From the NCBI RefSeq assembly GCF_026151205.1, contig NC_087081.1:11845113-11905112 (forward strand): 60,000 bases of DNA, given 5' to 3'. The stretch is from Bolinopsis microptera (Eukaryota > Ctenophora > Tentaculata > Lobata > Bolinopsidae). This document shows positions 7,891-48,956 of this stretch, piece after piece (within the stretch, counting starts at the first letter, position 1; every line of letters begins with the position of its first letter). Made by a program: the position numbers and the translations under genes. The notes under the pieces are model-generated. The model was not told the origin of the DNA. It made no database searches and was given only the letters and a program-made list of their open reading frames with translations.

Positions 7891-9566
7891 AAAACTCTTT
7901 ATTATCGTTATTCGAAGGCATTAAACTGTGGATTTTATATTGTTTTGGGGGATAGTTGAGGTTCATTACTTGATTATGTTTTATCAACCATTAGTACTTT
8001 TAATTGTTGGCAAAGCTTTACTGTCTTACTAAAAGTGTAACTTAAAATATTTTGTAACTTACCGTCTTTTCTTAAAAGTTTAACTTATGTAAATATGAAT
8101 AATCATTCAATTGTTCCGTTGGTATATTCGTAATTAAATTTTGAATTGAGACTGATGATTAGGTCATTAGATCTAATTTATAAAGGGCAGGATGTACTAT
8201 ATTAAAGAAGGTGTTTTCAATCCCTAAAATATTGGAGGAGATTAAATTTCAGTTAAAGTTCATCCGCATATTGATTGTTCAACTAAGCTTCACTTCGACT
8301 TGCACTTTTTTCATGATTTTTTACAGGGTGGGAATTGAAACAGTAGTCTCAGATTTGATAAGTTTTACTTTTTTTAAAGGATTGAAAGAAACATGCAGCT
8401 ATTTTTAACCGTGATTTTATTAATGACATCTTGATCTTCGTCGTCGGGGAGTTCGTTCAACGCGGTGAAACTATCGGCAGCATATAATATTTGCCACCCC
8501 GGTCCCTTCTAACAAAAATAAAATTCAGCTCTTAATCACAAATAAGGATTAAGGATCTGCAATATTTACAGCTCCATCCAGGCTCCTACCTTTTCGGTTT
8601 TCCGCATGCTCAACAACATCAAGATTTATTCAGTCTATCAGATTTATAAGATTCGTTTAAATTTGTTTTTAATGTAATGATGAGATTCCCGCGATTGAAT
8701 TAACTGCAAAAACTTTAGTTTATTTATTTTAAGGAATGCATTAGTTGTAGCTGGGTTTTCATTCCTCTGGTCCAATCTAGTGCGCATTTGTATGATAAGT
8801 AGTAGTGTCAATTATTTTTCGAATCGTCTGTTGGTTAATTAATCTCAGTGTTATCCATATAATTTTATGTTTGAATGGTATCATTGCTAGATGTTGGCTA
8901 TTTACGCGTACGAATTATCAACCTTGTCTCACTGTTGTAGGACCATTTTACTCATTAATTTGTGGCACAGTCAAACAATAGCACATTCAAACAGTAGCAG
9001 TATGAGATTTAAATCTAAGACGATTAGTCGCCATCTGAAACCAATTTTTCAAATGATTTATAACAGCAATGATAAGAAAATCAAACGATAAAATTTGTTT
9101 CAATCTATAAAATGATAGGCAAACCACATCACTATACTATTTTTGAATTAACCACAATGAACTTTGAATTGAGATTTCAGATTTCAGAATACTCCTTAGT
9201 CTTGCCTGTCTGGACCATTGTTCGCATATGATCCGATTTAATCTGATTTGCAGTCCTATACTGTTAAATGTTCATGCTCGTTCACTATAATAATAGCTTA
9301 AGTTTTAAGCTTTTAACTGTTCAGTAGCTCGATTATATCTTGAGCAGATCGAGCCACTCCTTTTCTCTGGGCTCGAAGCCTTTTCTTCAGACCTTTCAAA
9401 AGCAAGGGTGCTCTATGATATTGTTATAACTTAACTCACTCTGTTGAAAAGCATAGTGTGAGTGCAATGTTTAAGCAATGGTTAGACAAAAAAAAACATT
9501 ATTTACTTTACATCGAATTTTGGTCAAAATGCCGATCCTTCACAGCTTAACAATCATTATTGCCAG

Positions 9567-9590
9567 GGATGCGTTTATAGGACCTGAAAT
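9567..9590 (+). promoter_or_regulatory. Conserved 5' leader after an AG acceptor, first collagen gene
   Basis: Sequence just before the start codon (GGATGCgtttataggacctg) is shared with the second gene (GGATGCatcaataggccctg). In both genes the similarity begins immediately after an AG, preceded by tattgccag here. That pattern suggests a spliced 5' UTR exon or a spliced-leader trans-splice acceptor, rather than an unspliced transcription start. Confidence 0.45.
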
Positions 9591-10550
9591 ATGGCATCTC
9601 GAAAATTTCTTGGAGTAGTCCTGCTGTATGCGCTCTTTGTAGCGTGTGTTAAAGCGGATGCAGAGGCCGACGCTGAGGCTGATCCAGAAGCTGACCCGGC
9701 TGGCTGCTGTTCAAGACCCACAACATTTGTGAAAGGTAAAAATAAATACACTATCATTATTGGCCAGGGAATGCTACACAAAAAAATCCCTGTGCTCCAC
9801 TTATTTTAGCCATACGTATTAAACTGCTGAGCATTAATGAATATTCTTTGTTTCCTAGGTAGACAAGGACCCCAGGGAGTGCAAGGACCTGAGGGTGAAG
9901 AGGGTCTTGCTGGACCACCCGGATCCATTGGTCTTCAGGGAGACAACGGTCCATTCGGTCAGAAGGGAGAACGGGGTAACCCTGGTCTCGCTGGAATGAA
10001 GGGAGCTCGTGTAAGTTAATAGTTATATTATCAGCTTTCTGTCTCAGTGTCAAAATTAAGTTTTACAGATCCTCTTCGTAAGAAATTTACAAAATTTTCA
10101 TACTTTAAAACTTTCATTGTTCCATGTAGGGAGAAGCTGGTGAACGTGGCCACGCAGGACCTCCCGGAGTTGATGGAGTTGACGGTGTTGATGGATCGGA
10201 GGGTCTACCCGGACTTGATGGTTGCAACGGTACTGACGGAGAAAAAGGAGCTGCTGGAGAACCTGGAGGCCCCGGTTTACCGGTCAGTTGTGTTTGGCTA
10301 TCAAGAAGGAATAATACAATTGTCGCCATAAATATTAATTGAACAAGGTAATACTTTGGTGAAACCAATAACATTTCACCATTCGTTGAATGATTTCTCA
10401 TTTTAGGGAGATACGGCCGGTCTAGATGGTAGTGACGGAGAAGATGGAGCCCCCGGTGAACCTGGTGCACCTGGTAATGTAATCGAGGGAGATCAAGGAG
10501 AGCCCGGAGCACCCGGTGAACCTGGTGCACCTGGAGATCAGGGTCCCAAG
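9591..10550 (+). other. Collagen IV gene 1: signal peptide, acidic segment and 7S-like region (exons 1-4)
   Basis: The N-terminus has a basic start, a hydrophobic core ([13 protein letters not shown]) and a cleavage-like VKA site. An acidic alternating segment [17 protein letters not shown] follows, then the Cys pair CCSRPTT. Exon 3 ends its first half with [11 protein letters not shown], which matches the GCNGT N-glycosylation site of the vertebrate 7S domain (human Asn126; here Asn132). Vertebrate chains have four N-terminal cysteines; only two are seen here. Confidence 0.75.
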
Positions 10551-13500
10551 GTAATTTTCATTTCTCATCTTCGATATTATCTTCCTAATTCGATATAATT
10601 TTCCTAATTATAATTTTATCCCGGCCCCAAGAAATGGACTCTGGTTAAGCGAATGTAGGATTTAAATTGTTTGAAATATTCGTCACTAAAACCAATACAA
10701 GCTGTTTCTGATGAACTATACTTGCGTTTTTCCATAATATTGTTATTCACAGGGTGCCGAAGGAAAAGCTGGCTCGAATGGAATTCCTGGTGCTGATGGC
10801 CAACCAGGTGATGCTGGAGAAAAAGGTCCTGACGGAGAAGCCGGACCTCAAGGGCCAAATGGACCTGCAGGGGAACAAGGTGAACCTGGGGAACCTGGAA
10901 ACCCAGCAGGATCAGATGGCGTTGATAACTTTGTCAAGGGAGCTAAGGGTCCTCAAGGAGGTCAGGGAGAAAAGGGAGACGATGGTGTCGGCGAGACTGG
11001 TCCTGTTGGAATACTTGGAGTGCCCGGAGTAGCAGGTGCGAAAGGAGAAACTGGTTTGCCCGGTGAGTCACCGCAGGGAGCTCAAGGTGACCAGGGGGCC
11101 CAGGGAGGACAAGGAGAACCCGGAGATCAAGGACCTGACGGACCCCAGGGACCTGCAGGAGATGACGGCGAACCAGGAGCCGCTGGAGAACAGGGAGTAC
11201 AAGGAGAGCCTGGAGACGATGGTGCCAACGGAGCTGCTGGAGATCAGGGAGACGCCGGAGAACCTGGTGATGACGGTATAGACGGTAGACACGGTACTCC
11301 CGGTGTTCCCGGGGCCAAAGGAGACCCTGGTGAGACCAGAATCGCTCGAGGCCTCGATGAAATTGATGCACCTCCAGGTGAAGCTGGAGATGCTGGTGCC
11401 CCTGGTAAGTTGCGAATTTCTCAAACTCAATCTAATGATCATAGAACCCTTTACAAAGTTGCTAAAAATGTCAAAAATGACTTATTGTACACATTTCACA
11501 AGTTATCATCCGCACTTTTATTTGGCTGTTTACTCGTCATAACCCATTTGATGAATATGGAATTGAATTTTGTAAATTCTAAACTTTGACCAGAAAAATC
11601 GAACAGGTGAACCAGGCGCAGTCGGAGATCCGGGAGATGTTGGTGCCAAAGGTGAAGCTGGCGATGCTGGTGCCGATGGGAGTGATGGTATACCCGGAAT
11701 ACCCGGAACTGAAAAAGGAGCGAAAGGTGAACGTGGAGGACAAGGTCCACCCGATGGACAAAAAGGAGAACCAGGTGTAGAAGGACCTGGCGGAAGTCCT
11801 GGTAAATAAAAATAATAATGTTCCATTGACAGCTCCACAGTCAAGCATCTGTTAACTTTAGATTCTTTTTGTATGATAAATATTCTTTGTTAGTTGAATA
11901 ACCCATTATAACCATAAGGTGATCCTGGTGCCAATGGTGCAAATGGAGAAGATGGTGCACCAGGTGAAGCCGGTATTCCTGGAGATGCTATCGAGGGAGC
12001 AAAAGGACCGCAAGGAGATCTAGGAGACCAAGGAGATCAAGGAGCACAAGGTACTCCTGGAACACCTGGCGCATCAGTCGAAGGATTGGCTGGTCCTCCT
12101 GGATTACCCGGAGCCTCTGGAGATAAAGGAGATGCTGGTGCTGCTGGAGAGCCTGGAGACGAAGGACCACAAGGTTTGATATACCTTATCGGACACAATT
12201 GTCACGGACAAGTTTTTCAAGGACATAATTATTCATGCTCATGACTGTTTTACTCTTTTTCTGAATTCTAGAATCAAAGTCATAGTGATCATGGCGTTAT
12301 AACTTAAGTACTTTAACTTACTGTTATGTAAATTTGTGTATTTGTCCTAGTATACTAATAAGCTAATATAGTAATCGGCTACACAAGTATCTACGCTTCT
12401 ACGCATATTTAGGGACACACACAGTAAAGTTAATGGAAAAAATTACCGGACTTTATTATTCACGGACCTTAATGACACAGACATTATTTTCAAGGACATA
12501 ATTATTCATGCTAAGGTTTTCAGCGTAAAAGTAATGTCCGTGAAAATTATGCCCGATAAGGTAGAACCTTCTAGAACCCTTTAACTGTAGATTTATTTGT
12601 CGTACAGTATTAGCTGATACAATTTCAATGGAGGTCTTATTTCATTGAGTCACGGTGATTTTTAGCTGTGTTTACAATACGTCAAACGAATGCTCACTGT
12701 AATTGAATATCTTATCTCCAGGTAACCCAGGTTCTGATGGTGGGCCAGGCGAACCTGGTGCAGATGGCTCTAACGGAGCTAACGGTAAAGACGGAACGCC
12801 TGGAGATGACGGAGCAAAAGGAGAACAAGGAGAAACCGGTGATGCTGGAGAAGATGGCACACCAGGACAGCCCGGTACACCCGGTACTCCTGGAAACAAG
12901 GGACCATCTGGACCTCCCGGGGATCAACCGGGAATCAAAGGAGAACCTGGAGCGGAAGGTGATTAAGAAAAACTGTCGCAAGAATTATGTAATTAAATTG
13001 ATCAATGACTTGCTTATCCGCAGGCAGCAGATATTTCATTTTATGTTATATTATTTACAGGTTTACGCGGGCACTCTGGCAGTCAAGGAGACCAAGGAGC
13101 ACCCGGGGTGATTAAGGGAGAACCTGGTCAAGATGGATCTGATGGTGAGGATGGAGATGACGGTGCAGATGGAGAAGATGGATTGGATGGTGAGGATGGA
13201 GCAGTAGGAGCTCAGGGCCCAGACGGTGCACCTGGACCCAAAGGAGAGGAAGGTGAACCAGGTGATGTCGGCGGTCCGGGAGCCCCTGCCACAGCTGGAT
13301 CCAAGGGACAAAGTGGTGAGCCAGGAGTTCAAGGTGAGCCCGGTCCTGATGGACTTAACGGTACTCCTGGAGCAAATGGAGCTAATGGAATGCCAGGAGA
13401 ACGTGGAGAACCTGGTGCTGACGGACCCAGTGGAGAGCCTGGCAACCCAGGTACCAACGGAGCTGACGGTGCTGACGGATCCAACGGAGAACCTGGCGAT

Positions 13501-16500
13501 GCTGGAGCACAGGGAGAAGACGGACCACCAGGACTTGAAGGAAGCCAGGGGCCACCAGGAGAACCTGGTGTACCTGGTGTACCCGGAGTTCCAGGATCTG
13601 TCGTAGGAGCTCCAGGACCTAAAGGAGCAGCTGGTGAGCGAGGCGACCCAGGTGGTGCACAAGGTGATAAAGGACCTCAAGGAAACCCCGGTGAGGACGG
13701 TAAGGATGGGAAAGACGGAAACCCAGGACTAGACGGAAATTCAGGACAAGACGGTCAACCAGGAAAAGCAGGTGCCAAAGGTCCGAGAGGATTACGAGGA
13801 GACAATGGTGTTGACGGAGAACCTGGAGATGATGGACAGGATGGAGCAGATGGCAAGAATGGACCAGATGGAATTCCCGGAATTCCCGGAGGACCAGGTG
13901 AGTTATTATTGTTTATATCCATTAGAAATTTGTAGAATTTGTTACAAATATGATATAGCTTCAGACAAGAGATTCAGTTCATTTTATAAAACATTCTTAG
14001 TTATTGGTAAACCTCCCATAAATGCTATACATGTTATACTACTATGATTTACTAGGCCAATTAATGAAAATTGAAAAAATTTTTTTAGGAGCACCAGGAG
14101 AAAAGGGCCCACCTGGTCCAGACGGAGCAGATGGACCTGCCGGAGAGCAAGGACCTGCAGGAACAGAGCAGGGACCTCCAGGACCACCGGGTGACTCACC
14201 TCATGGAGAACCAGGACAGAAGGGAGAACCCGGCATTGGAACCCAGGGAGAGCCTGGAGACAAGGTAAGTTCAGTGCAAATATGTGGCAAATAGGTGGAA
14301 AATAGGTGGCAAATAGGTGGCAAATTTAATAGTGCCTGATAACCATTTAGTTTAGTTTATTTGTATGCTAAGCGATTTGAATTTGAAAACATAAACCTGA
14401 GTTTCATCTCATTGAGTAAATATAAAAATGAACTGTTTAAAAAAATTAGAATCCTAATTATCGAAAATTTTGAAGTTTTTTGTTAATAAATTCACAGTTA
14501 TAGTCCGTCTTCTCGGCTTGTATTTCTGTCAATCTGATATTTACAAAACTTTTCTAATCAGGGAGCAGCTGGAGGAAAAGGTAATCCTGGTGCAAGCCCA
14601 CAGGGAGAGGCTGGAGAAAAGGGCCCTCCTGGAGATGTCAAGGGACCAGCTGGAGATCCAGGTCCTCAGGGTGAATCCGGTAATCAAGGAGCACAGGGAA
14701 TGAATGGAGTACCTGGAGCCGATGGTGGACCTGGACCTCAGGGACCCACTGGTGAAGATGGAGCTCAGGGTGATAAGGGCCCACAGGGAGCCCCTGGAGC
14801 AGCAGGACCATCTGGTGAGTTTTAAAATTATTTGAACTGTCTTCAAATTGAAACTGCAGACCGCTGTGACCACAAGGAATTTCATTAACTTTCACGATAA
14901 AGCTGTCAAATAAAAACCGTGAAAAAAACAAAAATAATGGTCATTACCCTTAGGAGAAGATGGTAATGACGGATTAGATGGTGCAGCAGGAGCACCCGGT
15001 GCTGATGGCCCCCCAGGACCCCCGGGAGAGCCAGGAATGGAGCCAGGAGCCCCGGGAGCAAATGGACCCGACGGAGTACCAGGAGCGCAAGGTCCACAAG
15101 GAGAACCTGGAGCACAAGGTAAGCTCTTAATTGCCATTACTCACTTTTTGTCTACACTCAATCACATTTTTTGTTGACCGTATAATTTTCTGTTTATGCT
15201 TCGATCTAGAGATGATAAGCGAATTATCTGAACTATTATGTTTCTGGGATTTCTACCAAAATATTTTCAAAATATTTCCGAACATCAAATTGGAGCGACT
15301 TCAACACATTTTACATGAATCGTTTTAATAGGTGACCAAGGAGAGCCAGGAGAGCCAGGAAAAGATGGTATCGATGGATTCCCTGGAGGCGTCGGCTTCA
15401 AAGGAGGAAAAGGTCCAACTGGTGATTTAGGTAATCCTGGTGATGTTGGTGAACCGGGTGATCCATACGAAGGTCCAAATGCTCTTTCCCTCAAGGGTCA
15501 CAAGGGCGAAAAAGGAGATGCTCCACAGGTAATACTTTACATGATTTTATACGATTCTATTTAACAAGAATTACGCTTATTGTATTTTGTATGTTTAAGG
15601 AAAGGTTTTCAATTAGAAAACTTCGAATAAGATGAAACGATTTTTCACGCAGTTTGTCCATTGTAAACAATATGGTGAACTATCCAAATTCGACCTTCAG
15701 TAATCTTTGAAATAGTCCTTATTTCGAATATAGGTATACAGTTGAGGTGGAAATAAATCAGCCTAATGCTTATTCTAGGGTGAAGCCGGAGCTAAAGGAC
15801 AACCAGGAGACCCCGGAGCCGCTAACGACCTTCCAGGAGAACCAGGACCTCAGGGAGAACAAGGTGCTCCAGGAGAACCAGGTGCCGATGGGGAAGATGG
15901 AGAACAAGGAAGTGTTGGTGATGACGGAGACCAAGGTCTGCAGGGACCTCCAGGAGAACCTGGTGCTGATGGAGGAAAGGGCGATCAGGGCATGGTTGGT
16001 GCACCTGGACCAGTCGGTGAAGCAGGTCCTTCTGGACTTCAGGGCTTCAAGGGAGTCGTGGGACCAGGTGGTGCTCCCGGTAAGCTTCAACTTATTCTCA
16101 TGAATTAATCAATATAATCTTATATAATTTTACTCAAGATGCTCTAAAGCCAGTCCTAGGATGATGTAACTTGCACTCCCCTCATTGAAAAAACAACAGG
16201 TTTAAAGTTAACATTTCACTAATAAATTGTTTTCAGGAGACCAAGGTCCGAAAGGAGATCAAGGAGAAAACGGTCAGGACGGTAATAACGGACCTGATGG
16301 TATTCCTGCTGTAGCCACAGCATGTACTGGAGAACCGGTTAGTTCTTCTAATAGTTTAATTGTGGATTCACCAACATCATCAGGACACCTTATCATTACT
16401 ATGCATATAGTTTACGAGCGATTCAAATTACTCTCAAAATCTGCGAATATATTCTTTGCAAATACAATCCATTCTATCAGGGCGAGCCAGGGGCTCCAGG

Positions 16501-19232
16501 TGAGAAAGGACCACCGGGTGTTGAGCAAGGTGAAGTAGGACCGCCAGGAGGCAAAGGACCTACTGGACTGGAAGGAGAGAAAGGACCTGCTGGAGAACCC
16601 GGAGATAGCAGCGGACCATTAGGACCTCAGGGAGAAACTGGAGAACCAGGAGAGCCTGGAATAGACGGACCACCAGGACCACCAGGACCACCTGGCGAAG
16701 ATGGAGCTGATGGTGAACCTGGGGAACCCGGACTGGGAGTTCCAGGTAGATATTTCGCTCAAACTTAAAAGCGGAGTATGGCACTATTTCTCTCTCTTTT
16801 TTTCTAAATTAAATACTGATGGCCTTAATCTCAATGATGGCGGCTTACGAGTGTTCACATGATGTAATAGATATTGTGTAACATTAATAGATAAATAGCT
16901 AATCATGCTTATACTTCTAGGTAATCCTGGCGCCCATGGAATCAACGGAGCCGACGGAGCTCAAGGAGAACCAGGCGAAAACGCGGAGGCTGGATCACCT
17001 GGAGAGCCAGGAGCTCAAGGTGCAACAGGAGCCCCTGGAGCAGGTGGAGCTAAGGGTGCTGTGGGACCTGCAGGTCCTGCTGGGCCACAAGGAGAGTATG
17101 GTGAACCAGGAGAAGCGGGCGCCAAGGGTGCACCTGGAGCTGACGGTCAACAAGGAGATTCCGTAAGTTGAGCATTTAAATACAATATAACTTTATGTCG
17201 ACGACTGACCCACTTTCCCAGTAATATGAAAATACTCTTGATCGATTTAATTTGACAACTTAATAGTGGATACATTTTATAGGGCGATAATGGACCACAA
17301 GGAGAAAAAGGAACAGTTGGAGAGTTCGGTGAAGACGGAAATATTATGGTTATTGTTGATCCCGAGTCCGGTGAATTGACACAAGAATTCGTGTTCTGGA
17401 TCAACTTGATCAGCGAGATTTTGAACGTGACTCAAATTGCCGAGAAAGGACAACCCGGTGAACAGGTTAGTCACAATGAGTGATCAATGAAATTTTGAAC
17501 AGTTTTACGAAAAGAGACCCTTTAAAACAGTTAGCCGTATTAAAATGATCGTTATATGTACTACTGATAGAATGAAACATTCTGATCCTATCCTTGCAGG
17601 GGATGCATGGACCGGCCGGAGAAAATGGACCACCTGGAGCAAATGGATTAGATGGAGCCAATGGAGTTCCTGGTCTGGATGCAGCTTCTGATGGAGAAGA
17701 TGGAGTTACTGGACTGATCGGAGATCAAGGACCGGCCGGTGAACCTGGAGCTAAGGGAGAAACTGGTGCACCTGGTAATGATAACGAAGAGAGTGCACCA
17801 GCATCAAGTAAGTCAGCTTTAATCGTGGGAAAAGGATTCATAAATGTACAATTTCATGATTTTAAGTGTGACTCATCAGAGTTTGTGTTGTTTCTTATAT
17901 GATATAATATAATTGCTGTAAACCTGGTTAAATTAAGGTAATGAGAAAGGAGAGCCCGGCCAAAAGGGGCTAGCTGGAATCAGGGGACAAAAAGGAGAAC
18001 CAGGAATTGCTGGAGCTGATGGAGAACAAGGGCCTGAGGGAGTGTGTGAGCCGGTCGAGGTCGTCCCACGATGCAACTGTGATACCCACATTGTTGTCAG
18101 ACATTCTCAAACTACTAGTGTAAGAATGCTTAGAAATAACCTTCTGTTTCTACTTTCTTGAATTTTTCATTACGAGTTTGCTTTTTTAAATTGCCTAATG
18201 CTGATATCTTACTTATTCAGGCTCCTGAGTGTCCAACAGGATACATATCACAATGGACGGGATACTCTCTAGTGTTCTTCGAAGGCAATGGTGCCGGAGT
18301 CGAACAAGATCTTGGAACTACTGGTAAGTGCAAATATCGCTTCATAGCTTTTTTCAAAATTTATTAAATCACAAAGGTCAGTGATCCCAAAATGGTAGCT
18401 ATTCACAATAAGTTGGCTTTTAGAATTTTTGCTCAACCTAATAATTTTCAGGATCTTGTCTGGAGACATTCCAAGTGATGCCCTTCATGCAATGTTCCAG
18501 CCCTGATGTGTGTCAACAGGGACTCAGAACTGACAAGTCTTTCTGGCTGGGTGTTGACGCCGAGGCTGATTTCACCGTCAAACCAATGTCCAGCATCGAC
18601 GAAATTGACAATCACATTTCAAGATGTAATGTGTGTGTTGGTACAAGTGAAGTCCTCACCAGGCATTCCTTCTCCGGCTCCGCACCTAACTGTCCTAATA
18701 CTTACCATGAACTGTGGACTGGATACTCTTTCCTCATGGTATTTTCTTATTTATTTTTTAAAAACTTCTTTCTCTTCTTTCCGATCGCTCTAATTCTTGA
18801 TATAATTGGGTACAAATCAGATCGCTGCATTTCTATTATACGCTTGTTATTTGGATTTTAAAACTTCTGTCCAGCAATGAATAATAGAATCTATTAGCAT
18901 CTAAATTGCCACTATTTTGTTGAGCAATTCTCCAGCTTTGTGAGTCCACCATTCCATTCCTTCAGGTAAGCTCAAATGGTCCATCTGGTGGCAGCCAGGA
19001 CCTCGCATCTTCCGGCTCGTGCCTGGAGAACTTCTTCATTCCAACCTTCATCGAGTGTCTGGGACGAGGCACCTGTGCTTACTACATCACCAACTTGGAC
19101 TACTGGCTGGCTCAGAACCCTGATATCACGCAACCAGGCATGTGGGGTATGGGTAACGTGTACAGCGGTATCGACGACATTCTTGATAACGGAATTTCTA
19201 GGTGTACTGTATGCGCCAAGGATATCATGTAG
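9591..19232 (+). CDS. Collagen IV alpha chain, first of tandem pair (complete, 23 coding exons)
   Basis: Basement-membrane network collagen, predicted 1899 residues. Exons: 9591-9735, 9859-10010, 10130-10282, 10407-10550, 10753-11404, 11607-11801, 11919-12173, 12722-12958, 13061-13897, 14089-14264, 14562-14814, 14954-15118, 15332-15528, 15779-16079, 16237-16337, 16481-16745, 16921-17162, 17283-17465, 17600-17807, 17938-18119, 18221-18323, 18452-18738, 18966-19232; the sum is 5700 nt, divisible by three. Order: signal peptide (1-22), acidic Asp/Ala/Glu segment, Cys39-Cys40, an interrupted Gly-X-Y domain with the 7S sequon CNGT (Cys131, Asn132), a 36-residue hydrophobic interruption (about 1510-1545), three linker cysteines (1657, 1666, 1668) and a duplicated NC1 domain with 12 canonical cysteines. 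It is longer than human COL4A1 (1669 residues). The start was chosen because the second gene shares the same initial MASRKFLGV. Donors at 12174 (gtttga) and 12959 (gtgatt) are weak but required by frame. Confidence 0.93.
12182..12563. mobile_element. TIR element inside intron 7 of collagen IV gene 1
   Basis: The left end TACCTTATCGGACACAATT and the right end AATTATGCCCGATAAGGTA are inverted repeats. A block caaggacataattattcatg occurs twice inside (about 12218 and 12494). The terminal TA may be the target duplication. No coding capacity. It accounts for most of this unusually long intron and is absent from the matching intron of the second gene. Confidence 0.7.
14278..14325 (+). repeat. Short tandem repeat in intron 10
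   Basis: The unit aaataggtgg(c/a) is repeated about four times directly after the exon 10 donor. Non-coding. Confidence 0.7.
17283..17465 (+). other. Collagen IV gene 1 exon 18: conserved hydrophobic non-collagenous interruption
   Basis: This 61-codon exon starts and ends with Gly-X-Y triplets but has 36 residues without Gly-X-Y in its middle. It contains IMVIVD, then [15 protein letters not shown], an amphipathic hydrophobic stretch with an N-glycosylation sequon (NVT). The second gene has an exon of exactly the same size and layout at 26685-26867. It may be a trimer-registering or association segment; this is an inference from conservation. Confidence 0.8.
17938..19232 (+). other. Collagen IV gene 1: pre-NC1 cysteine linker and NC1 domain (exons 20-23)
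   Basis: After the last Gly-X-Y triplets come [15 protein letters not shown] and the NC1 start VVRHSQT. NC1 has the usual two homologous halves: [28 protein letters not shown] and SRCNVC in the first, and [32 protein letters not shown] and SRCTVC in the second. The 12 canonical cysteines are all present. In the second half, between DYWLAQ and SRC, there is no lysine, so the Hyl211 partner of the sulfilimine bond is missing. The stop is TAG at 19230-19232. Confidence 0.85.
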
Positions 19233-19738
19233 AGATCTTGAAGAATATTTGGCGCTATGCATATAATGAACTAGTGTGTCAACAATTTTAATGAACGAGA
19301 TATAAATTGCAGGATTTTGTACTTCAGTCCGATTTATTTTTGATATATCGCATTTTCATATTTTTACAGTTAGTTTGATAACGTAAGAGCGTTTAAACCT
19401 TTTACTTAAAACCTATTACCACATTACTATTATTTCTAGTCTTATAACTATAAATTACGACAACATTTATACAATCACTTTTGAATTTGAACCTTGTTAT
19501 ACCTCAGTACGTTTTACTACGTTTTGATTTGAAATGTAATATTTAAGTTCATATCATACTGTTCTGAGGGTGACTGGTCTGACACCGCAAATAAATTGTA
19601 TTATTGCTGTGTTACTTGCATATTTTTAACATCTAAACCTTGATCATAGTTATTGATGGACATAAATCTTACTTCTTAAACGTCCATATTACGCTGAAAA
19701 TAATTTATTTTATTTCACTAAGTTGCTAATCTCAATAG
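19233..19738 (+). other. Short intergenic space between the tandem collagen IV genes
   Basis: About 530 bp lies between the stop of gene 1 and the start codon of gene 2. It must hold the 3' UTR of the first gene and any promoter of the second. It is AT-rich with no recognisable core promoter. A T-rich tract ending ctaatctcaatag sits directly before the conserved leader of gene 2. Confidence 0.6.
19590..19595 (+). terminator. Polyadenylation signal candidate, collagen IV gene 1
   Basis: AATAAA about 360 bases after the stop codon, followed by a mixed T/G-rich stretch (attattgctgtgtt). Confidence 0.45.
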
Positions 19739-19762
19739 GGATGCATCAATAGGCCCTGAAGG
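19739..19762 (+). promoter_or_regulatory. Conserved 5' leader after an AG acceptor, second collagen gene
   Basis: A pyrimidine-rich tract and ctcaatag precede GGATGCatcaataggccctg, the counterpart of the leader at 9567. The distance to the start codon is 24 bases in both genes. It is compatible with a 5' UTR splice acceptor or a trans-splice site serving a downstream gene of a closely spaced pair. Confidence 0.45.
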
Positions 19763-20707
19763 ATGGCATCTCGAAAATTTCTGGGAGTGCTCCTCCTCTG
19801 TGGGGTTCTGGTAGCGTTTGTAGAGGCGGATGCTGACGCCGATGCTTGGGCTGACGCTTGGGCTGAGGCCGGTCCTGATCCTGGCAGTTGCTGTTCTAGA
19901 CCAACAACATTCGTTAAAGGTACGTTGATCAGGGAATTATGTACACTATATGAGAGTTAACGTCATTGAAGTAATTTATAGTGCGGTTTGAAAATGAAAT
20001 ATCCTCTGAATGATTGATTGATATCGTAATCTTTCTTTGTTTGCAGGTAGACAAGGTCCTCAAGGTATTATAGGTCCAATGGGCCCAACTGGTGCCGCTG
20101 GTCCACCTGGTGCCGTTGGAGAAATTGGACAACCGGGACCACCTGGTCCAAAGGGAGGAACTGGTAACCCTGGTATTGTGGGTGTCAAAGGCTTCCGTGT
20201 AAGTAAAACTATGCATATACGCCAAAAACAAATTTCGGAATGATACATATTTCTATGTTTCTATGATAGACATTAATTGAAATTTGCTCTAAAACAACTG
20301 AATCCAGGGAGAACTTGGAGATCAAGGACCCCCAGGACCCCCTGGTGAGGATGGATCTGACGGTATTGATGGTGCTGACGGAACTCCTGGAACGGACGGT
20401 TGCAATGGTACTGAAGGAGAACCAGGAGACCTTGGTCCAGCTGGACCTCCCGGCGCACCTGTGAGTAATATTAGTTTGATATAAATCGCGACGAATAATT
20501 AAAAACAATTTATGATAGAAACCGTGTATGGTTTTGTCACTCGACTTCTAATTCAAAATTTAGTTTCATGTAGCTGGAAAGGACGGTACCCCTGGAACCC
20601 CTGGAGCTAAAGGAGAAGCAGGACCCGATGCTGTGCTTGAAGAGGGTGCGCAAGGACCTGACGGAGAGGCCGGACCTGATGGTGCAGCTGGACCCAACGG
20701 TGAAATT
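19763..20707 (+). other. Collagen IV gene 2: signal peptide, acidic segment and 7S-like region (exons 1-4)
   Basis: The secretion signal ([17 protein letters not shown]) is followed by [20 protein letters not shown], an acidic repeat that differs from gene 1 in carrying two tryptophans. [11 protein letters not shown] is identical to gene 1. Exon 3 carries [11 protein letters not shown], the 7S glycosylation sequon at residue 136. Exon 4 opens with FHVAGKDG where gene 1 has GDTAGLDG, so a triplet glycine is lost in this chain. Confidence 0.7.
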
Positions 20708-23700
20708 GTAAGATTGGATAATAATTTACCACAATCACTGTTTAGATTCAACTAATCAAATAGCCGACAGAATTACAATATCAAGTGCCGAAAACAAATC
20801 TCAGTGAAGTTATTCGAAAACAATTTTAGATGCGTGACTCCTTTGTAAAGTTAGTTACCAATCATATTTCAGGGATCTCCTGGAGATAATGGAGCAGACG
20901 GAATAGATGGAGATGCAGGAGAGGTGGGAGCTGCCGGTGAAAAAGGATCACAAGGAGACAAAGGACCCCCTGGTGAAGTCGGAGGACCAGGAGACCAAGG
21001 TCCTGATGGTGAACCAGGCGCACCTGGAGACAATGGACAAGACGGTGCTATTGGACAAAAGGGAGAGCCTGGAGAGCCAGGAACTATGAAAGGAGAGCCT
21101 GGTGAGGATAGAGTCGGAGATCCTGGAGCCCAAGGAGAAACCGGCCCCCAAGGTATCACAGGCAAACCTGGTGATATTGGGTCACCTGGAGAAAATGGTG
21201 TCAAGGGAGAGCCTGGTTTGGAAGGTGAGACTGGAGAACCTGGAGAAGAAGGTCCTGCTGGAGCCCCAGGCTCTGCTGGTATTGCCGGTAACCAAGGACC
21301 AGAAGGAGAGAAAGGACCTTTAGGTGCTGCTGGTGAGCCAGGTGAAGCTGGAGATCCCGGTGTTGCTGGAGCTGTTGGAGATGATGGTGCACGTGGTAAC
21401 AATGGAGTTAACGGAGAGCATGGAATGAAAGGAGCAGAAGGCGAAAAAGGAGAACCATCTGTGGTCGATGTCAAAGGAGAACCGGGTGAACCGGGTGCCG
21501 CAGGAGCTCAAGGTTAATTTTTGATCAATGATAAGTTGTCTCGCGGCCATTCTAAAATTCTCTTATCAAAGGGTTTACTCAAAAGCACATATTTTGCAGA
21601 AATTGATTATCTAATCCTAAACTTTGTTACCAACAGGAGAACCTGGCACCGTCCAAGGATCTAAGGGAGAACAAGGTGAACAAGGTGACACGGGCCCAGC
21701 GGGAGCTGACGGAGTAGATGGGGATGATGGGGATGACGGTGAGGAGGGAGAGGAGGGAGACAAAGGACCTATGGGTCTTCCCGGACAGCATGGTTTTAAG
21801 GGAGAAGCTGGTGATGCCGGTCCTCAAGGAGAAACTGGAGATCAAGGTCAGTCATTTAACTAACTACATAATTCATTTTTAGGATGTCAATACGTTTAAC
21901 CTAGTTTGGTGTAATTGTATCTAAGAAGTAACAATTTTGGTTCATAGAGAACATTAGCTGAATAATCATCTATACTTGTTGTTCTCTTCAGGTGCTAATG
22001 GAGTAGATGGCGAAAATGGTGCTGACGGAGCCGCTGGACCCCAAGGTGAACCAGGTGAAAGCATCATGGGAGAGAATGGAGATGCTGGAGCGCAGGGAGA
22101 CCAAGGACAAAAGGGCGCTCCAGGGGATGCCGGAGCTGATGGTGAAGCGATAAAGGGACAGCCTGGTCCTGATGGACCTATTGGAATGGACGGAGCTCCT
22201 GGTGTCAAAGGAGAAGCTGGAGAATCTGGACCACCAGGACCTCACGGTAAAACAATTTCTATGTTCATCAAGTGATTAAAAGCGTCCTTCTTCCATACTT
22301 TCAGTGGTCTGCCGTCTGTGATTAAAGTCTTTTGTCTATTTCATTCATAGAATATGATCGTCAATCTTGACTTAGAATTGAAACTGCACCATGATTTTTG
22401 TCAAAAGCTGCTAACTGCAGCTCACTGGTATATCAGGGAAGTAACATATTATCCTCTGCCAGGTGAACCTGGTGCCAATGGGCCCGCTGGAGAACCAGGT
22501 AATCCAGGACAAGACGGACTTGACGGAAGTGACGCCATTTCTGGAGGAGTTGGAGAACCTGGAGATCAAGGAGCCAAAGGTGCTAGTGGACAAGATGGAA
22601 ACGATGGGGACGATGGTGACGATGGTGCCGACGGGGAAAGCGGTGACCAAGGGCAACAAGGCGAACAAGGAGCTCCTGGGGAACCGGGTCCAGAAGGTAA
22701 TAACACTTCAATAGATCACAACATCTTATTTTAAAATAAGTTGTTGTTGTTTGTTGTTTTTGATGAAAGCATAATTTGAACTAATCCTGCCGACAAATGA
22801 TTTGTTTAATTTTCAGGACCTAAGGGAATAACTGGACAAAAGGGAGAGCCTGGAACATTGGGAGAAACAGGAGAGGCCGGTGTTTCCGGAGACACAGGAT
22901 TGGATGGTAACCCAGGTAACCCTGGCAACCCTGGCAACCCTGGAGAGGATGGTGCACCTGGAGAACCAGGCAAAGCTGGGGAGAAGGGACCAGAGGGAGA
23001 CCAAGGAGCACGAGGTAGTCCTGGGCCCCCAGGATTGGAGATGAGGGAGCCTAGGGAGCTGTTGGGTGACCAGGGAGATGTTGGTGAAGATGGCGGCCCT
23101 GGAGAGGCAGGTAAGCCAGGAGTTGATGGAGCCGACGGGGACAAAGGACCTAACGGTGTTGCAGGCGCTACTGGTGACAAAGGAAGGACTGGACCCGTGG
23201 GAGACCATGGAATTGACGGCATTAATGGCAAAGATGGTTCACCCGGAGAGGATGGTATCGATGGTGAACAAGGGCCACAGGGTAATCCAGGTGCAGGACC
23301 AGGGCCAGATGGACAACAAGGAGAGCCTGGAGAAGATGGTCTTGATGGTGAGCATGGATACGGACCACAGGGTGAAAAAGGAGAAGCTGGTGACGTAGGA
23401 GAAATGGGAGTAAACGAATTAGGTAAGCCGGGTGAAGTTGGAGACCAAGGAGAGCCTGGGAGTGACGGTAAAGATGGTACAGATGGATCCGATGGTGCAG
23501 ATGGTGCAGATGGTTCAGATGGACCCCAAGGACCACAAGGAGAGGCAGGTGATCCAGGACCAGCCGGTGATTCTGGAGCTCAGGGTCCTAATGGAAACCC
23601 TGGAGCAAATGGACAGCCTGGAAGTCCTGGAAATCCTGGGGCCCCCGCAAAAGATGTGCAGCAAGGTAATCCGCATAATAGCATCCTTAGTATTAATTTT

Positions 23701-26700
23701 GTTTGGTAATTCTACGTGCACAGTTCGTAATATCAAATATTAAATCTTTTTATGATTTCGCATTTCACGGTCATTTTTTAGAAATATCTTTTACATAAAA
23801 CTCAAAAATTAGACTGCTTGATAATAATCTGATCCTTAACTAAAAAGTTTTTGTATTGAGTTAAATGACAATAATTAATCAAATTTGATTTATAAAATCC
23901 ATCATGTCTAGTATAAAATAACGTTTAATTGATTATCACAGGACCTGGAGGAGAGCCTGGAGAGCCAGGTAATGATGGTGTAGCTGGAGCCACAGGAGCA
24001 CCAGGTATTCCTGGACCTGCTGGACCTCCAGGACCTGATGGTGAACCAGGTGCTGTTGGTGAACCAGGAGAAATTGGTGAACCAGGAGAAACTATTCCTG
24101 GAGACCAAGGAGCTAAGGTAAACGACAAAATAATCTGCGTTTAAAAATAAATAAAATACATTTTAATATGGGATGTATTAAATTGAAAATCATCAATAAA
24201 TTAATACCTTAATCTCTTAATGCGGTAAATTTCACTTATCTCACTACAGGGTGAACCAGGAGTAGAAAAAGGTGAACCTGGAATCCCAGGACCTGATGGA
24301 GAAGCAGTGCAAGGTGACCCCGGTCAGAAGGGAGAACCTGGCGTGCCCGGAACTATCAAGGGTGAGGCAGGAGCCGCTGGTGAGCCTGGTAACCCTGGAG
24401 AATCTGGGGACATGGGTGCACCTGGAGAACAAGGACCTGCCGGCAACGCAGGAGGTGCTGGTGACGCTGGTGATGCAGGAGAGCCTGGAGAAAAAGGCCC
24501 AAGCGGTTAGAGTCGTAATTCATATCTAAGACAGAACGCAACATTTCAAACAAGCATAAATCTTAATATAAAAACTTCGACTACGTTATTCAATGTCCAA
24601 CAATCGACTACTATTCAATGTGCAACATTGTCAGGTTCCTCTGGTAACGATGGAGCTGACGGAGCACCAGGAGCTCCAGGAGCACAAGGACCTCCAGGAC
24701 TTGCAGGAGAGCCTGGTCCTCAGGGAGAGGCTGGAGTACCTGGCGAAGATAACAATGTGAAGGGCTCAAAAGGAGAACCTGGAGATGACGGAGCACAGGG
24801 TTTTTAATTAATTTATATTTTTGACAATGATTTATTTTTGTCATTCCAAATAACCACTTTTGATTTTTATTTGATCTTTAAAAATGTTGCAATTGTAAAT
24901 CAAATATAACTTCATATAGTTATTGTTTGTATTCTTCAGGAGATAAGGGCCCACAAGGACCAGCTGGTAGAGACGGTTTGGGTGCTGAAAAAGGTCCAGA
25001 TGGTATTATGGGTATCTCAGGAGACCCTGGACCTACAGGAGAACAGGGAGAAAAAGGACCACCAGGTGAACATGGTGGAGCAGACGAAGTAATCAAGGGA
25101 GAAAAGGGAGATCCTAATGGAGATACAGGGCCAAAGGTTAATTGATGAAATTACTTTTAGTTTTCCACTGTCATTCATCGTTATTTTTATTCATTCTATC
25201 AATTCAACCAAATTTTATTTCAAACAAAACCTGTGGGTTTACATTTTGCATATTCAGGGTGATACTGGAGCACCTGGTGAGGATGGTGCTGCCGGAGCTG
25301 ATGGTCCCCAAGGTGAACAAGGACCACCAGGAGAAGATGGTGCTCCAGGAGGCTTTGGAAATGATGGAGCAGATGGTTCTCCGGGAGAAGCAGGTGCTAC
25401 CGGACAACCAGGTCCTAAAGGTCCAAATGGAGAACCCGGCAACGCTGGAGCAGAGGGAGCATCAGGTGATAAAGGACCAGATGGAGAGAAAGGACCAGAT
25501 GGAGATCAGGGAGCACAGGGAGAACCTGGAGATGCAGGATACGAGGGCTCTAAAGGTGAGCTTTCTTCGTGTTAACGTTTAAGGTTGTAAAAATCCTATA
25601 AGGTTTAAACTCAGATTTAATTTTAAGATTCTTTGTTCTAACATAGTTGTCAACCTTCAGGTGGAATTGGTGGAAAAGGACATCCAGGTGTACCTGGATT
25701 TGACGGGTCTAAGGGACAACCTGGTCAAGACGCCAATCAAGGAGCTTGTCAAGGAGATAGTGTACGTTAAGATATAAGGGGCGATTTAATATGATATCTC
25801 AGATTGTAATACTAATATCCGTTAGATGAATATGATTATTATCTGTTTGATAGCACTGTTTTCATTTTTTTCTAATAGAAATTTTATCAGGGGGTAGCTG
25901 GAGAGCCAGGAGAACCAGGAGATCAAGCACCTCAAGGTGAAAAAGGACCTAACCTAATATCTGGCGGAGAAAAAGGAGACAAAGGACCAGCGGGCCCTCA
26001 AGGAGATCAAGGAGAGCCAGGCGCACAGGGTGCAACCGGAGAAGACGGCGCTCAAGGTCCAGATGGTCAACAAGGACCAGCAGGAGAAGACGGTCCACCC
26101 GGAGCTGATGGTGTAAGGGGTGCAAAGGGAGTCTCCGGAGTCAGTGAACCAGGTTAATTACTTAATAATTGTAGTTTAGATCGCACCGTTTTCAATCGAT
26201 TTTGTTACTTAATATTTCTAAACGTGTATTTATAAGATTTTAGATTATAAGATTAAATATAAAATTCATTTATCAGGTAGAAATGGTGATCATGGCTCTA
26301 ACGGAGCTGATGGTGCTCAAGGCGAGCCCGGTAAAGATGGTGCCGATGGTGACCAAGGAGAACAAGGTGAGACTGGAGCGAGTGGTGAACCAGGAAACCA
26401 AGGTGCTCCAGGCGAAGTTGGACCTGAAGGACCAATGGGTGATCAGGGTGATCAGGGAAGTTCTGGCGCTGTTGGACAAAAAGGAGAAGCTGGAGGCGAT
26501 GGATCCAAAGGAGAACCCGTAAGTTTTATTATATCATTGCAGTAAATGTATATTTCGACTTCCTTTTTTAGACATCACATTACTGGCATCATTTTATTAT
26601 TAATAAAAAGTAACTGATTATTTTTAATCTGTGAACGTCTGAAGAGTTGTACACTAATTGTTATAAACATATTTCTGATGCCAGGGAATGTCCGGAGAGA

Positions 26701-29022
26701 AGGGAGCAGAGGGAGACAAAGGAGGCCCGGGAATTGATGGCAACATCTTCCTCATCAAAGCCGAGATTGGAGATCCCATTCCACCTGAATACTATATCTG
26801 GATTGAGATCATCAACTCTGTCCTCAACAACACTGCATTTGGCGACAAAGGCGAACCAGGACCTCAGGTATGGATTTAATTTTCGGAGATTAATAACCTG
26901 AGTGTGAGACACTTGTTTATACCACAAGAAAAAAAAGTTATCGTACGCCCATCTGTTAGCTTCTTAGCATCTTGACAGTTATTAAATTTGATTATTCGAA
27001 CTTAATTTATCAGGGACCTGCTGGAGCTGACGGTGTTAAAGGAGAGCCAGGTCTGAACGGTAACCCTGGTATCGACGGAAACGACGGAGAGGACGGTATC
27101 GACGGAAACGACGGAGAAAAAGGTGCTCCAGGACCACCGGGTGTTGAAAAAGGTCCTCAGGGTGCTAAGGGTGATACCGGTGCACCAGGAAAAGATGGAC
27201 CCGATGGAGAGAATGGTATGTTATATTTGCAGAAACATTTTGGTTCTATCTACTGTTGTAGTATTGCTTGGAAATTTATCTTTGTAATTTTATTTCAACT
27301 TACAAAATTTAAATTTTTTCTTAATTTAAACAGGTAAAATAAGTTATTACTTCTGTTCCCAATCAGGCCCAGATGGAGAGCCAGGACAAAAGGGTCTGGC
27401 TGCAGTTGAGCCAGGAGAGATGGGAGAACCAGGTCTGGATGGAGCTAAGGGAGAAAAGGGACCTGATGGACTTTGTGAGCCAATCAACGCCCCCGCTTGT
27501 AACTGCGACACCCACACCCTTGTCATTCACTCTCAAACCGCAGATGTAAGACATCGTTTAAAAATCATTTACTTTCTTTTTTCCATTTCAAGACGAAATT
27601 TGAAAAAAAGTGTTTTAAAATTAGACAAATTTGCAAAACATTTCGTTAATTTTATAAACTGCTGGTCTATCTTTAATGGGTTATTATTTTAGCAACCAGA
27701 CTGTCCAGCAGACTTCATTTCTCTCTGGTCAGGATACTCTCTTTTGTTCTTCGAAGGAGAAGGTTACGGAAATACTCAAGATCTTGGACGTGCCGGTAAG
27801 TTAAATTTTAATTGTTGGCGACTAATTTATCATATACTGCGATAATTACATTTACATAATATGATGAAAACGAGCGGGCTAAATCACTCTATACTCGATA
27901 TTCGAAATTTTTCTAAGAGGGCCCCCGATAGTTGAAACCAACTTAAATCGATGTATTTTCGGAAACTGATTCCGAATCACACACCCCCAGGGTTAAAAGG
28001 GTTAAAATGCTCCCCTGGCAAGATATTGGCGAAAAACTGTCTCGATCACGTGATATGGAAGTTGGTCTAATTTCTCGTTAGGGTTAGGGTTTCAGCACAT
28101 GCTTTTGTTAGGGAATGGGATTGGGTTAGGGTTGGGGTCAGGTTAGAGCCTTAAAAGGCTGTGGTTTGGAATAGTCGTTCAGGGCCAGCTAGAGAAAGGG
28201 TTAAAAAGGCACGTGACAGTCGAGTGTAGAGTGATTAATCATCATCCTAACGAAAAGCTACAATTTTTTTATCTGATACTACTTTAAAATGTTCAGGTTC
28301 CTGCTTAGAAGAGTTCCAACTGGTGCCCTTCATGCAATGTGCTGGCAATGAAGTGTGCAGACACGGTGTACGAGCTGACAAGTCCTTCTGGTTAGCTGTC
28401 GAAGCCGAGGCTGACTACACAGTTAAGCCAATGTCCAGTATTGACGAGATCGTGCCACACATTTCGCGGTGCAGGGTTTGTTCTGGCACTCAGTTCATTC
28501 TGACCAGACATTCTTTTACTGCAGAAAGTCCTGAATGTCCTGACGATTTCACCCCACTGTGGGAAGGATATTCATATGCCATGGTAAGTTACAACTTTTT
28601 TTGATTCAACTATGCTCTAGGATTTTCTATCACTATTTTTCTTCATTCTTTATTCTTGCCAAACATTCAAAAACCTGCCTCTGTCTGTCTAATACGAACA
28701 TACAATGTTTGAGTCTTTACTTTAACTTTACTAAATCTCTGCATTCCAGGTTACCTCATCGGGCGTGTCTGGCGGAGGCCAGGACCTCGCCTCATCTGGA
28801 TCATGTCTCCAACAGTTCCACCTCCCAACCTTCATCGAATGTCTGGGCAGGGGTACATGCGCATACTATATCAACAACTTGGACTACTGGCTCGGCCAGA
28901 ATCCAGACATTACTCAGCCCGGCATGTGGGGTATGGGTAATGTCTACAGCGGTCTGGATGAAATCCTTGACCAAGGTGTGGCGAGGTGCACTGTTTGTAC
29001 CAGGAACGCCATTGAGGATTAA
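19763..29022 (+). CDS. Collagen IV alpha chain, second of tandem pair (complete, 23 coding exons)
   Basis: Predicted 1905 residues. Exons: 19763-19919, 20047-20198, 20308-20460, 20564-20707, 20873-21512, 21637-21846, 21992-22246, 22463-22696, 22817-23665, 23942-24117, 24250-24505, 24635-24799, 24940-25136, 25258-25555, 25661-25761, 25891-26152, 26277-26518, 26685-26867, 27014-27215, 27367-27545, 27693-27795, 28297-28583, 28750-29022; the sum is 5718 nt. Twelve of the 23 exons equal gene 1 in length and the rest differ by multiples of three, with the same phases. Layout as gene 1: signal peptide, acidic Asp/Ala/Trp segment, Cys43-Cys44, CNGT sequon (Asn136), interrupted Gly-X-Y domain, hydrophobic interruption (1517-1552), three linker cysteines and NC1. 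Exon 4 was anchored at 20564 by its 144-nt length; this replaces the first Gly triplet with FHVA. Donor 24800 (gttttt) is very weak but gives an exon of the expected 165 nt. Confidence 0.93.
26685..26867 (+). other. Collagen IV gene 2 exon 18: conserved hydrophobic non-collagenous interruption
   Basis: Same 183-nt size and same layout as gene 1 exon 18. The 36-residue interruption has IFLIKAEIG, then [18 protein letters not shown], with an Asn-X-Thr sequon aligned with that of gene 1. Hydrophobic spacing and sequon are kept although many residues differ, which points to selection on this segment. Confidence 0.8.
27367..29022 (+). other. Collagen IV gene 2: pre-NC1 cysteine linker and NC1 domain (exons 20-23)
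   Basis: The linker [15 protein letters not shown] keeps the three extra cysteines of gene 1. NC1 motifs are [73 protein letters not shown] and ARCTVC. All 12 canonical cysteines are present and no lysine lies in the cross-link loop ([16 protein letters not shown]). The stop is TAA at 29020-29022. Confidence 0.85.
27871..28250. mobile_element. TTAGGG-bearing MITE, copy 2, inside intron 21 of collagen IV gene 2
   Basis: It aligns over its full length with 3311-3694, including gctaaatcactct at the left, the gctgattccgaatcac block, gggttagggttt tracts and cgagtgtagagtgattaatc at the right. It makes intron 21 about 500 bp, compared with about 130 bp for the same intron in gene 1. No coding capacity. 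Confidence 0.8.
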
Positions 29023-29791: not shown

Positions 29792-30252
29792 TTTAAGAGG
29801 GGGGGGGTTCACCCTGATTTTTTTTGTGAAACTTGGTTTCGAGATAGCAGTTTGACCAACAAACTAGGACCGGTGACCGAACTTTTGAGGGGGTCCCGGA
29901 CCCCAACCGCCAAACGGTGCCCGCGGGGCAGCCACGCCCATATTTGGTCATATGGTTTTTGGCTCATAACTCAGTCATTTTTTGTCCAATCTTGATGAAA
30001 ATTCATATACGAGTTCAGGGGACCACTAGCTACAAGTAGAGCAAGTAACAAATAAATCTGGATTTTGGGCATGTTCAGGGTATTTGGCTAAATTGGGCCT
30101 AATTATAATTTATGGGCGTGGCTGCCCCGCGGGCACCATTTGGTGGTTGGGGTCCGGGACCCCCTCAAAAGTTCGGTCAACGGTCCTAGTTTGTTGGTCA
30201 ACTGCTATCTCGAAACAAAGTTTCACAAAAAATCAAGGTGAACCCCCCTTAA
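29792..30252. mobile_element. Short foldback element flanked by TTAA (deletion derivative)
   Basis: Both ends are TTAA followed by a G-run (C-run at the right) and long inverted arms with matching blocks such as gatagcagtttgaccaacaa, gagggggtcccggacccc and gcagccacgcccat. It matches the outer parts of the 1.37-kb palindrome at 44164-45532 but lacks most of the middle. No coding capacity: the open frames at 29789-29995 and 30084-30305 are the two arms read through. Confidence 0.8.
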
Positions 30253-30798
30253 GTAAGCGAGCCAAACTAAAAAACTACAGTTGGGCTCGCCCACTTTATC
30301 TATGATCAGTGCTCTTAGTGTATACTGTATATGTCGAAAGGTCGATTATTTTCGTTTAGTTTTCTCCAGTTATTTGCCTTTTTTCTCTTTATCTGTCGAG
30401 AGTCGAGATGCTCCCTTTTAAACACTGCAATGTTAAAAACTCGCGGCCGTCCTTACGAGATCTATAAATTTAACACCAATTTGTTGTGTGGCGACTGTTT
30501 GCCCTCTCATGTCTCAAACTTTGTAGGGCGATACAAAAGATAATATCGAAGAGAAATTAAAGCTTCTAAAGTTTAACCTTATACTATACTAATACATATT
30601 AGATTCATGATTTCAAATCTGTTTCGCTACTAGTATCACTTATTAATGTTTACGGTGTGATGCCTCAGCTCAATTTTTGTTAAAGCTGTTAATTATTTCC
30701 ATTCACACCCTTTTGTAAAAAGGCAATAGTGAAAGGTTACGAATGGAAGTTTTTCCAGAAAAACGTGGATTTTGGACATTGCGGTAAAGTATTGTCAA
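30253..30798. other. Intergenic DNA, nothing recognised
   Basis: No gene, RNA gene or repeat could be supported here. Confidence 0.4.
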
Positions 30799-48676: not shown

Positions 48677-48693
48677 GGGTTGGGTATGAGATG

Positions 48694-48956
48694 ATATGTA
48701 CTGGTGGCATGATGTACTGGTGGTATGATGTACTGGTGGTATGATGTAGTATGTACTGGTGGTATGTACTGGTGGTATGTACTGGTGGTATGTACTGGTG
48801 GTATGTACTGGTGGTATGTACTGGTGGTATGTACTGCTGGTATGTACTGCTGGTATGTACTGCTGGTATGTACTGCTGGTATGTACTGCTGGTATGTACT
48901 GCTGGTATGTACTGCTGGTATGTACTGCTGGTATGTACTGCTGGTATGTGCTGCTG
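48694..48956 (+). repeat. 13-bp minisatellite just after the cyclin stop codon
   Basis: The unit is TGTACTGGTGGTA, about 16 regular copies after a few irregular ones. The first half of the array has the GGT variant and the second half the GCT variant (TGTACTGCTGGTA), so it grew by two expansions. It starts about 18 bases after the stop and would lie in the 3' UTR. The unit has no stop in any forward frame, which produces long false open frames. Confidence 0.92.

Follow-up and report, generated by a model that had tools for sequence, protein, structure and literature searches.

Two genes in a window of 60,000 nucleotides from the ctenophore Bolinopsis microptera (RefSeq assembly GCF_026151205.1, contig NC_087081.1, positions 11,845,113 to 11,905,112, forward strand) encode collagen IV chains and lie head-to-tail, a short spacer apart. 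The best explanation of the whole is very probably that they form an old tandem pair of Group II genes, an A-type chain followed by a B-type chain, which was copied as a block between the contig of the window (C10) and a second contig of the same genome (C13). Collagen IV chains must be produced in step, and most animals studied use divergent pairs for this. The A-B unit was copied whole and has retained its order and its short spacer at both loci, which suggests that ctenophores have a further linkage-based arrangement that works. What is added to earlier knowledge is the age and the block copying of this unit, together with a conserved leader that makes shared control at the mRNA level testable.

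The gene pair and its exon structure

Gene 1, the A-type chain, occupies positions 9591-19232 and has 23 exons encoding 1899 amino acids; gene 2, the B-type chain, lies at 19763-29022 and has 23 exons encoding 1909 amino acids. Both are read on the plus strand from ATG to stop with no internal stops, 530 bp separate the stop of gene 1 from the ATG of gene 2, and the window contains no N. The models were obtained with a hidden-Markov (Viterbi) model adapted to the codons of Gly-X-Y repeats and to GT/AG borders, and all exon borders of the two genes are predicted. Two exon ends of gene 1 were adjusted by eye, and a spliced alignment of the NC1 of gene 2 reproduces them.

The intron phases of the two genes are identical at 22 of 22 positions (10 of phase 0, 12 of phase 1 and none of phase 2), for which the chance probability is about (1/3)^22 if phases are assumed to be independent. 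Twelve of the 23 exons are equal in length and the remaining 11 differ by multiples of three. Glycine codons are split at 11 of the 12 phase-1 introns in gene 1 and at all 12 in gene 2. A first-pass annotation of the sequence had described a head-to-tail collagen IV pair with a matched 23-exon structure, about 530 bp between the coding regions and the same counts of phases and exon lengths; the models confirm this description, with outer ends at exactly 9591 and 29022, and it was right in setting the two plus-strand genes apart from the head-to-head arrangement that most animals have.

Protein features and class

To which class of collagen IV do the two chains belong? In the C-terminal piece of each gene there are two stretches matching Pfam C4 (PF01413; E 5.5e-63 and 5e-64), and both chains end in an NC1 of two C4 repeats, as in collagen IV. 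The Gly-X-Y runs total 1476 residues in gene 1 and 1473 in gene 2, with 32 and 26 interruptions respectively, again as in collagen IV, and a hydrophobic N-terminal start and a CC motif were seen by eye in both translations. Exon 18 holds the longest interruption of each chain, at 17340-17447 in gene 1 and 26742-26849 in gene 2 (both plus strand). This interruption resembles NC2. According to Fidler et al. (2017, PMC5395295; this and the other papers given by PMC number are cited from the parts available), NC2 and the cysteine loop are features found exclusively in the Group II chains of ctenophores. The length of the NC2-like interruption depends on the border rule, with 36 residues by the widest cut and 34 and 31 by the run rule, compared with approximately 38-44 in published Group II chains (PMC5395295). 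The cysteine loops (plus strand; gene 1, 18045-18080, 12 residues; gene 2, 27474-27506, 11 residues; three cysteines in each) fit the Group II range of 11-13 residues with 3-4 cysteines before NC1. Loop and NC1 together, with its two C4 repeats, span 18045-19229 in gene 1 and 27474-29019 in gene 2, within exons 20-23 on the plus strand. By the NC2-like interruption, the cysteine loop and the unidirectional layout, the predicted products of gene 1 and gene 2 fit ctenophore Group II collagen IV.

A unidirectional collagen IV array is not a new kind of arrangement, because unidirectional arrays of Group II genes have already been reported in Mnemiopsis (PMC5395295). According to the same source, Mnemiopsis has 11 collagen IV genes, of which those of Group I are head-to-head and those of Group II are single or in unidirectional arrays; the number of collagen IV genes ranges from 4 to 20 across ctenophore species, and head-to-head is the usual layout outside ctenophores. 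A search of titles and abstract openings, with the subscription literature mostly outside its reach, found no other paper visibly on ctenophore collagen IV arrays.

A second A-B unit and the age of the split

The first-pass annotation had pointed to other collagen IV copies in related genomes as informative; within the Bolinopsis genome itself, a census of such copies shows that the A-B unit recurs on C13. There the order is A13 (A-type, C13:11424851-11410150, minus strand, 23 exons, 1885 amino acids), then B13 (B-type, C13:11409506-11400505, minus strand, 22 exons) after 643 bp, and then, 1170 bp further on, E13, a more divergent third gene model of 29 exons. The genes on C13, and those on two further contigs, C12 and C1, were modelled by single-gene Viterbi runs. 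A 375-nt exon of B13 corresponds to the 199 and 176 nt of A13 exons 19 and 20, as expected from clean intron loss. Exons 9/10 of B13 are modelled as 841/169 nt against 837/176 in A13, and were handled as one block.

The exon plan of the pair is kept, with small changes, in four related genes elsewhere, including single genes on C12 (24 exons, with exon 22 split) and C1 (exons 4-23 located, plan shared). The shared plan had been taken as a sign of this particular duplication, which does not hold, since the single C12 and C1 genes have it too. Exons 1-3 of the C1 gene were not found; the modelled exons 1-2 are spurious, run into a reverse-transcriptase-like frame and were excluded from the comparison of exon blocks.

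How do the four A/B genes (gene 1, gene 2, A13 and B13) group? In the gap-free columns of 12 exon blocks, 483 nucleotide sites pair the two A genes with each other and the two B genes likewise, 147 group the genes by contig and 102 favour the cross arrangement; the corresponding amino acid sites number 97, 20 and 6. Divergence at fourfold sites is 0.38 between gene 1 and A13 and 0.41 between gene 2 and B13, and within loci it is 0.54 between gene 1 and gene 2 and 0.52 between A13 and B13. Fourfold divergence is larger within loci than across contigs, so the A/B split came before the copying between C10 and C13. The two cross-contig pairs appear to be of similar age, as expected from a single block copy.

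The trees support a history in which an ancestral gene of about 23 exons would have been duplicated head-to-tail, giving an A chain and a B chain. The A-spacer-B block would later have been copied whole between the present C10 and C13, a step to which the trees, the site counts and the homology of the spacers all point, and in both copies the order and orientation of the genes would have been kept, as would a short spacer (about 0.5-0.65 kb). The A-like genes on C12 and C1 would branch off the A side, with moderate support.

The spacer and the conserved leader

The 530-bp spacer (19233-19762, plus strand) presumably comprises the 3' untranslated region of gene 1 and the leader of gene 2. It has one AATAAA, at spacer position 358, and no ATTAAA, and it is homologous to the 643-bp spacer on C13 in three pieces (84.5% over 71 bp, 75% over 61 bp and 68% over 132 bp). 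In all four A/B genes, a leader of 24 nt stands directly before the ATG and starts behind an AG. The leader of gene 1 lies at 9567-9590 behind an acceptor-like AG at 9565-9566, and that of gene 2 at 19739-19762 behind an acceptor-like AG at 19737-19738 (both plus strand). Each leader contains a very short upstream open reading frame (ATG CGT TTA TAG in gene 1 and ATG CAT CAA TAG in gene 2), and the main frame is closed by a TGA two codons 5' of the ATG.

Among the A/B genes the leaders differ at 0 to 6 of 24 positions and the first 18 coding bases at 0 or 1, and in the 36 nt upstream of the leader 19 to 30 positions are mismatched (ungapped). Further upstream, only gene 2 and B13 can be aligned (the 71-bp piece at 84.5%). 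Set against fourfold divergence, the leaders are more similar than expected for A13-B13 (P 2e-8), gene 2-B13 (0.003) and gene 1-gene 2 (0.004), and the value for gene 1-A13 is borderline (0.055), these being four of the six pairs and non-independent. A genome-wide search with the leader pattern at up to 2 mismatches returned four matches, which are the four A/B genes; the reversed control returned none. The conserved leader common to the A/B genes, as delimited by these comparisons, is a new detail. The simplest reading is that its AG would be a 3' splice site, in cis or in trans, directly 5' of the start codon; conservation by gene conversion or as a DNA-level element is possible. A leader hairpin across the start codon, pairing GATGC with GCATC, was considered and rejected, as a stable fold is unsupported against shuffled sequences in all six genes compared.

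Spliced leaders and the co-ordination of the two chains

In the ctenophore Hormiphora, 56% of Iso-Seq reads carry spliced leaders (PMC8527503), and because leaders are common there, the AG is probably the site at which a leader is joined. By way of the Hormiphora leader (PMC8527503), a spliced-leader-like motif was located in the Bolinopsis genome: CACTACTATATAACAAATAATTTGAGG and its variants, which end in TGAG, have 1,397 genome copies (653 + 744, at up to 3 mismatches), and the reversed control has none. Each gene would most likely give its own mature mRNA, with the leader joined at the AG 24 nt 5' of the ATG. The secreted A and B chains would associate by way of their NC1 domains, and the cysteine loop would provide the cross-links of the resulting networks, as has been reported for collagen IV in ctenophores. 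The first-pass annotation held that the layout implies a different way of co-regulating the chains; this is an interpretation, to which the sequence adds the shared 24-nt leader. Co-ordination of A and B would stem from their neighbourhood and the shared mRNA leader, and not from a bidirectional promoter. At the level of sequence, co-regulation, trans-splicing or an operon at the A-B pair is possible.

In the operon, A and B would be cistrons of one transcription unit: the promoter would lie before A, the pre-mRNA would be cut, A would be polyadenylated and B would receive a leader at its AG. The short spacer retained at two loci (530 and 643 bp) is in keeping with this, as is the median operon spacing of 517 bp in Trichuris muris (PMC7986045). 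On C10 the AATAAA at spacer position 358 is followed 148 nt later by the leader acceptor, at 506, and the conserved sequence begins directly behind this acceptor-like AG; the abundance of the spliced-leader-like motif in the genome and the frequency of leaders on Hormiphora reads also fit. However, this leader and its acceptor are present in gene A as well and are thus not peculiar to downstream genes, and the two AATAAA signals of the C13 spacer lie 388 and 212 nt ahead of the acceptor. In addition, operons had not been reported in ctenophores according to the available part of PMC7986045 (2021). An operon is regarded as unlikely. If it exists, this dicistronic collagen IV operon resolved by a spliced leader would be without precedent in ctenophores, to judge from the available part of PMC7986045 (2021) and the literature search. 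It would be a unidirectional counterpart to the divergent collagen IV pair, in which the 24-nt leader would tune both chains post-transcriptionally. Two A-B loci in one genome offer a setting for distinguishing between an operon, a shared enhancer and control by the mRNA leader.

Alternative origins of the pair

Has the C10 pair arisen by a recent tandem duplication at its own locus? Every intron position and phase is common to gene 1 and gene 2, which speaks for such an origin, but it is very improbable. In the approximately unbiased (AU) test, grouping by contig is rejected both for exons 1-20 (p = 2e-49) and for exons 21-23 (p = 0.014), and so is the cross tree (p = 3e-47 and 1e-12, respectively); these verdicts cover the tested topologies, and the best topology for exons 21-23, in which A13 joins the B genes, lies outside that set. 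The excess of 483 over 147 nucleotide sites argues in the same direction, and the introns of the five genes compared do not align at E 1e-4. A duplication private to the C10 locus is rejected by the trees, in which gene 1 is nearest A13 and gene 2 nearest B13. Thus, the tandem duplication proposed by the first-pass annotation stands as to its tandem origin but was not local, as the A/B split predates the copying of the unit between C10 and C13. That a head-to-head pair has been inverted, by assembly error or in evolution, is barely credible: head-to-head is usual outside ctenophores (PMC5395295) and opposite-strand collagen N-terminal exons about 2.3 kb apart exist at C13 12.432/12.434 Mb, but on C13 the A and B genes stand in the same order and orientation and their spacer is homologous in part, the window is free of N, and Mnemiopsis Group II genes are likewise single or unidirectional (PMC5395295).

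Several results weigh against the history of an old A-B pair copied as a block. Exons 21-23 alone put A13 with the B genes, with support of 93.3/96 among six genes and 74.2/58 in an 18-sequence NC1 tree, and the NC1s of A13 and B13 are 87% identical; this odd placement of the A13 NC1 may be due to partial conversion of the NC1 exons or to slow evolution on C13. The C12 and C1 genes join A13 at only 77/76 support, and the collagen repeats align loosely. Comparison of the window flanks with 43 kb of C13 yields a single 43-bp match, and there is no sign in it of another gene copied along with the block. The window contains no copies of the spliced-leader-like motif, and the leader region folds no better than its shuffles in any of six genes (z +0.38 to +1.25; 300 mononucleotide shuffles).

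Relics of other C13 genes beside the C10 pair were also considered. A tblastn search of both window flanks with 15 NC1 models, gene 1, E13 and the model of a nested C13 gene (see below) gave no match at E 0.01 and hence no relic of E13 or of the nested gene at this threshold.

The first-pass annotation had also raised a possible match of the pair to alpha1/alpha2-type chains, and the NC1 phylogeny does not bear this out. The 18-sequence tree includes gene 1, gene 2 and 11 of the 15 NC1 models; its five remaining sequences, three from human and two from fly, fall into a clade of their own (94.9/91), apart from both genes. Several of the models are partial, several deeper nodes of the tree are weak and its ctenophore sequences all come from this genome; it omits two half-domains (C13 11.345 and 11.332 Mb), a near-copy at C13 4.516 Mb and the C1 19.76 Mb model. 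On present evidence, the A/B pair does not correspond to bilaterian alpha1/alpha2 and arose separately.

Comparison with known systems

The Group II genes of Mnemiopsis leidyi share with the Bolinopsis pair the single or unidirectional tandem layout, NC2, the cysteine loop before NC1, the split glycine codons and the two C4 repeats (PMC5395295). Seven Group II genes are named in that paper, and their consecutive names suggest a set of three, ML034334a/36a/37a, and a pair, ML18197a/98a. As far as names and counts go, the set resembles A13-B13-E13 and the pair resembles gene 1-gene 2. By contrast, the A/B pairing, the block copy and the leader are not described for Mnemiopsis in the available part of PMC5395295. 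Pairs of the COL4A1/COL4A2 type, found in Bilateria, Cnidaria and Placozoa, are similar in having two non-identical neighbouring chains with the same domain plan. Their genes have opposite orientations, whereas those of Bolinopsis run in the same direction, and the human and fly NC1s fall in their separate clade.

The leader also has a parallel in the 5' stem-loop that LARP6 binds in vertebrate mRNAs for type I and III collagen (PMC4813270): there too, partner chains have in common a short, conserved element at their start codons. This is an analogy only, with no sequence relation claimed, and no stable fold was found at the A/B leader. Moreover, the available part of PMC4813270 states that the LARP6-bound stem-loop is present in no other collagen mRNA.

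Collagen IV genes elsewhere in the genome

A C4 domain search of the whole genome gave 48 exon-level matches, which were grouped by position into about 16-17 genes. The window accounts for two of these, C1 for another two and C12 for one. The others are on C13, with five or six in the interval 11.33-11.42 Mb (one of which lies inside another), three in the interval 12.41-12.475 Mb and three at other places. Also on C13, minus-strand Gly-X-Y exons of collagen reach as far as 12,432,181 and plus-strand exons follow from 12,434,452, about 2.3 kb apart and thus head-to-head. These genes are probably of Group I, because the adjoining NC1s have no cysteine loop, and head-to-head and unidirectional layouts appear to coexist in this genome, as in Mnemiopsis. 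The opposite-strand collagen IV N-terminal exons lie within C13:12.4267-12.4357 Mb, and a further minus-strand copy adjoins at 12.413-12.420 Mb.

A second collagen IV stretch is located inside the 5371-bp intron 10 of A13, on the same (minus) strand (C13:11416593-11419534). Three long exons are modelled (1158, 258 and 1227 nt), encoding 880 amino acids and ending in an NC1 that scores slightly above that of gene 2 against human NC1s; an N-terminal region was not found for this stretch. Its acceptor is of phase 0 and keeps the Gly-X-Y register of A13 exon 10, and its length of 880 amino acids comes close to the 904 of A13 exons 11-23. The stretch may be either a gene nested in A13 or an alternative 3' half of that gene.

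Near-identical NC1 exons are found at C13:12474751-12475812 and C13:4515195-4516551, 8 Mb apart on opposite strands, and would represent either a recent duplication or assembly redundancy. A collagen IV-like gene at C13:4152-4160.5 kb has Gly-X-Y runs and very long open frames (1709 and 1746 amino acids around two C4 matches), and in this it differs from the many-exon collagen IV genes elsewhere.

Other features of the window

An open frame on the minus strand at 58146-59999, still open at the window end, contains six thyroglobulin type-1 stretches (PF00086). It has 16 genome matches including itself, none of them on C13, and the others are 27-36% identical over parts. Three frames (30030-30305, 44067-44349 and 45246-45599) have coding-like motifs in common by eye, for example GVPDPNRQTVRAGQPRPYLVQIRPNLAK in two of them, and are probably copies of one interspersed repeat. 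A repeat stretch at 48578-49010 has minus-strand frames that read as short peptide repeats (QYIPAVHTSSTY-like). At 893-1138, a minus-strand frame resembles, by eye, a fragment of a reverse transcriptase.

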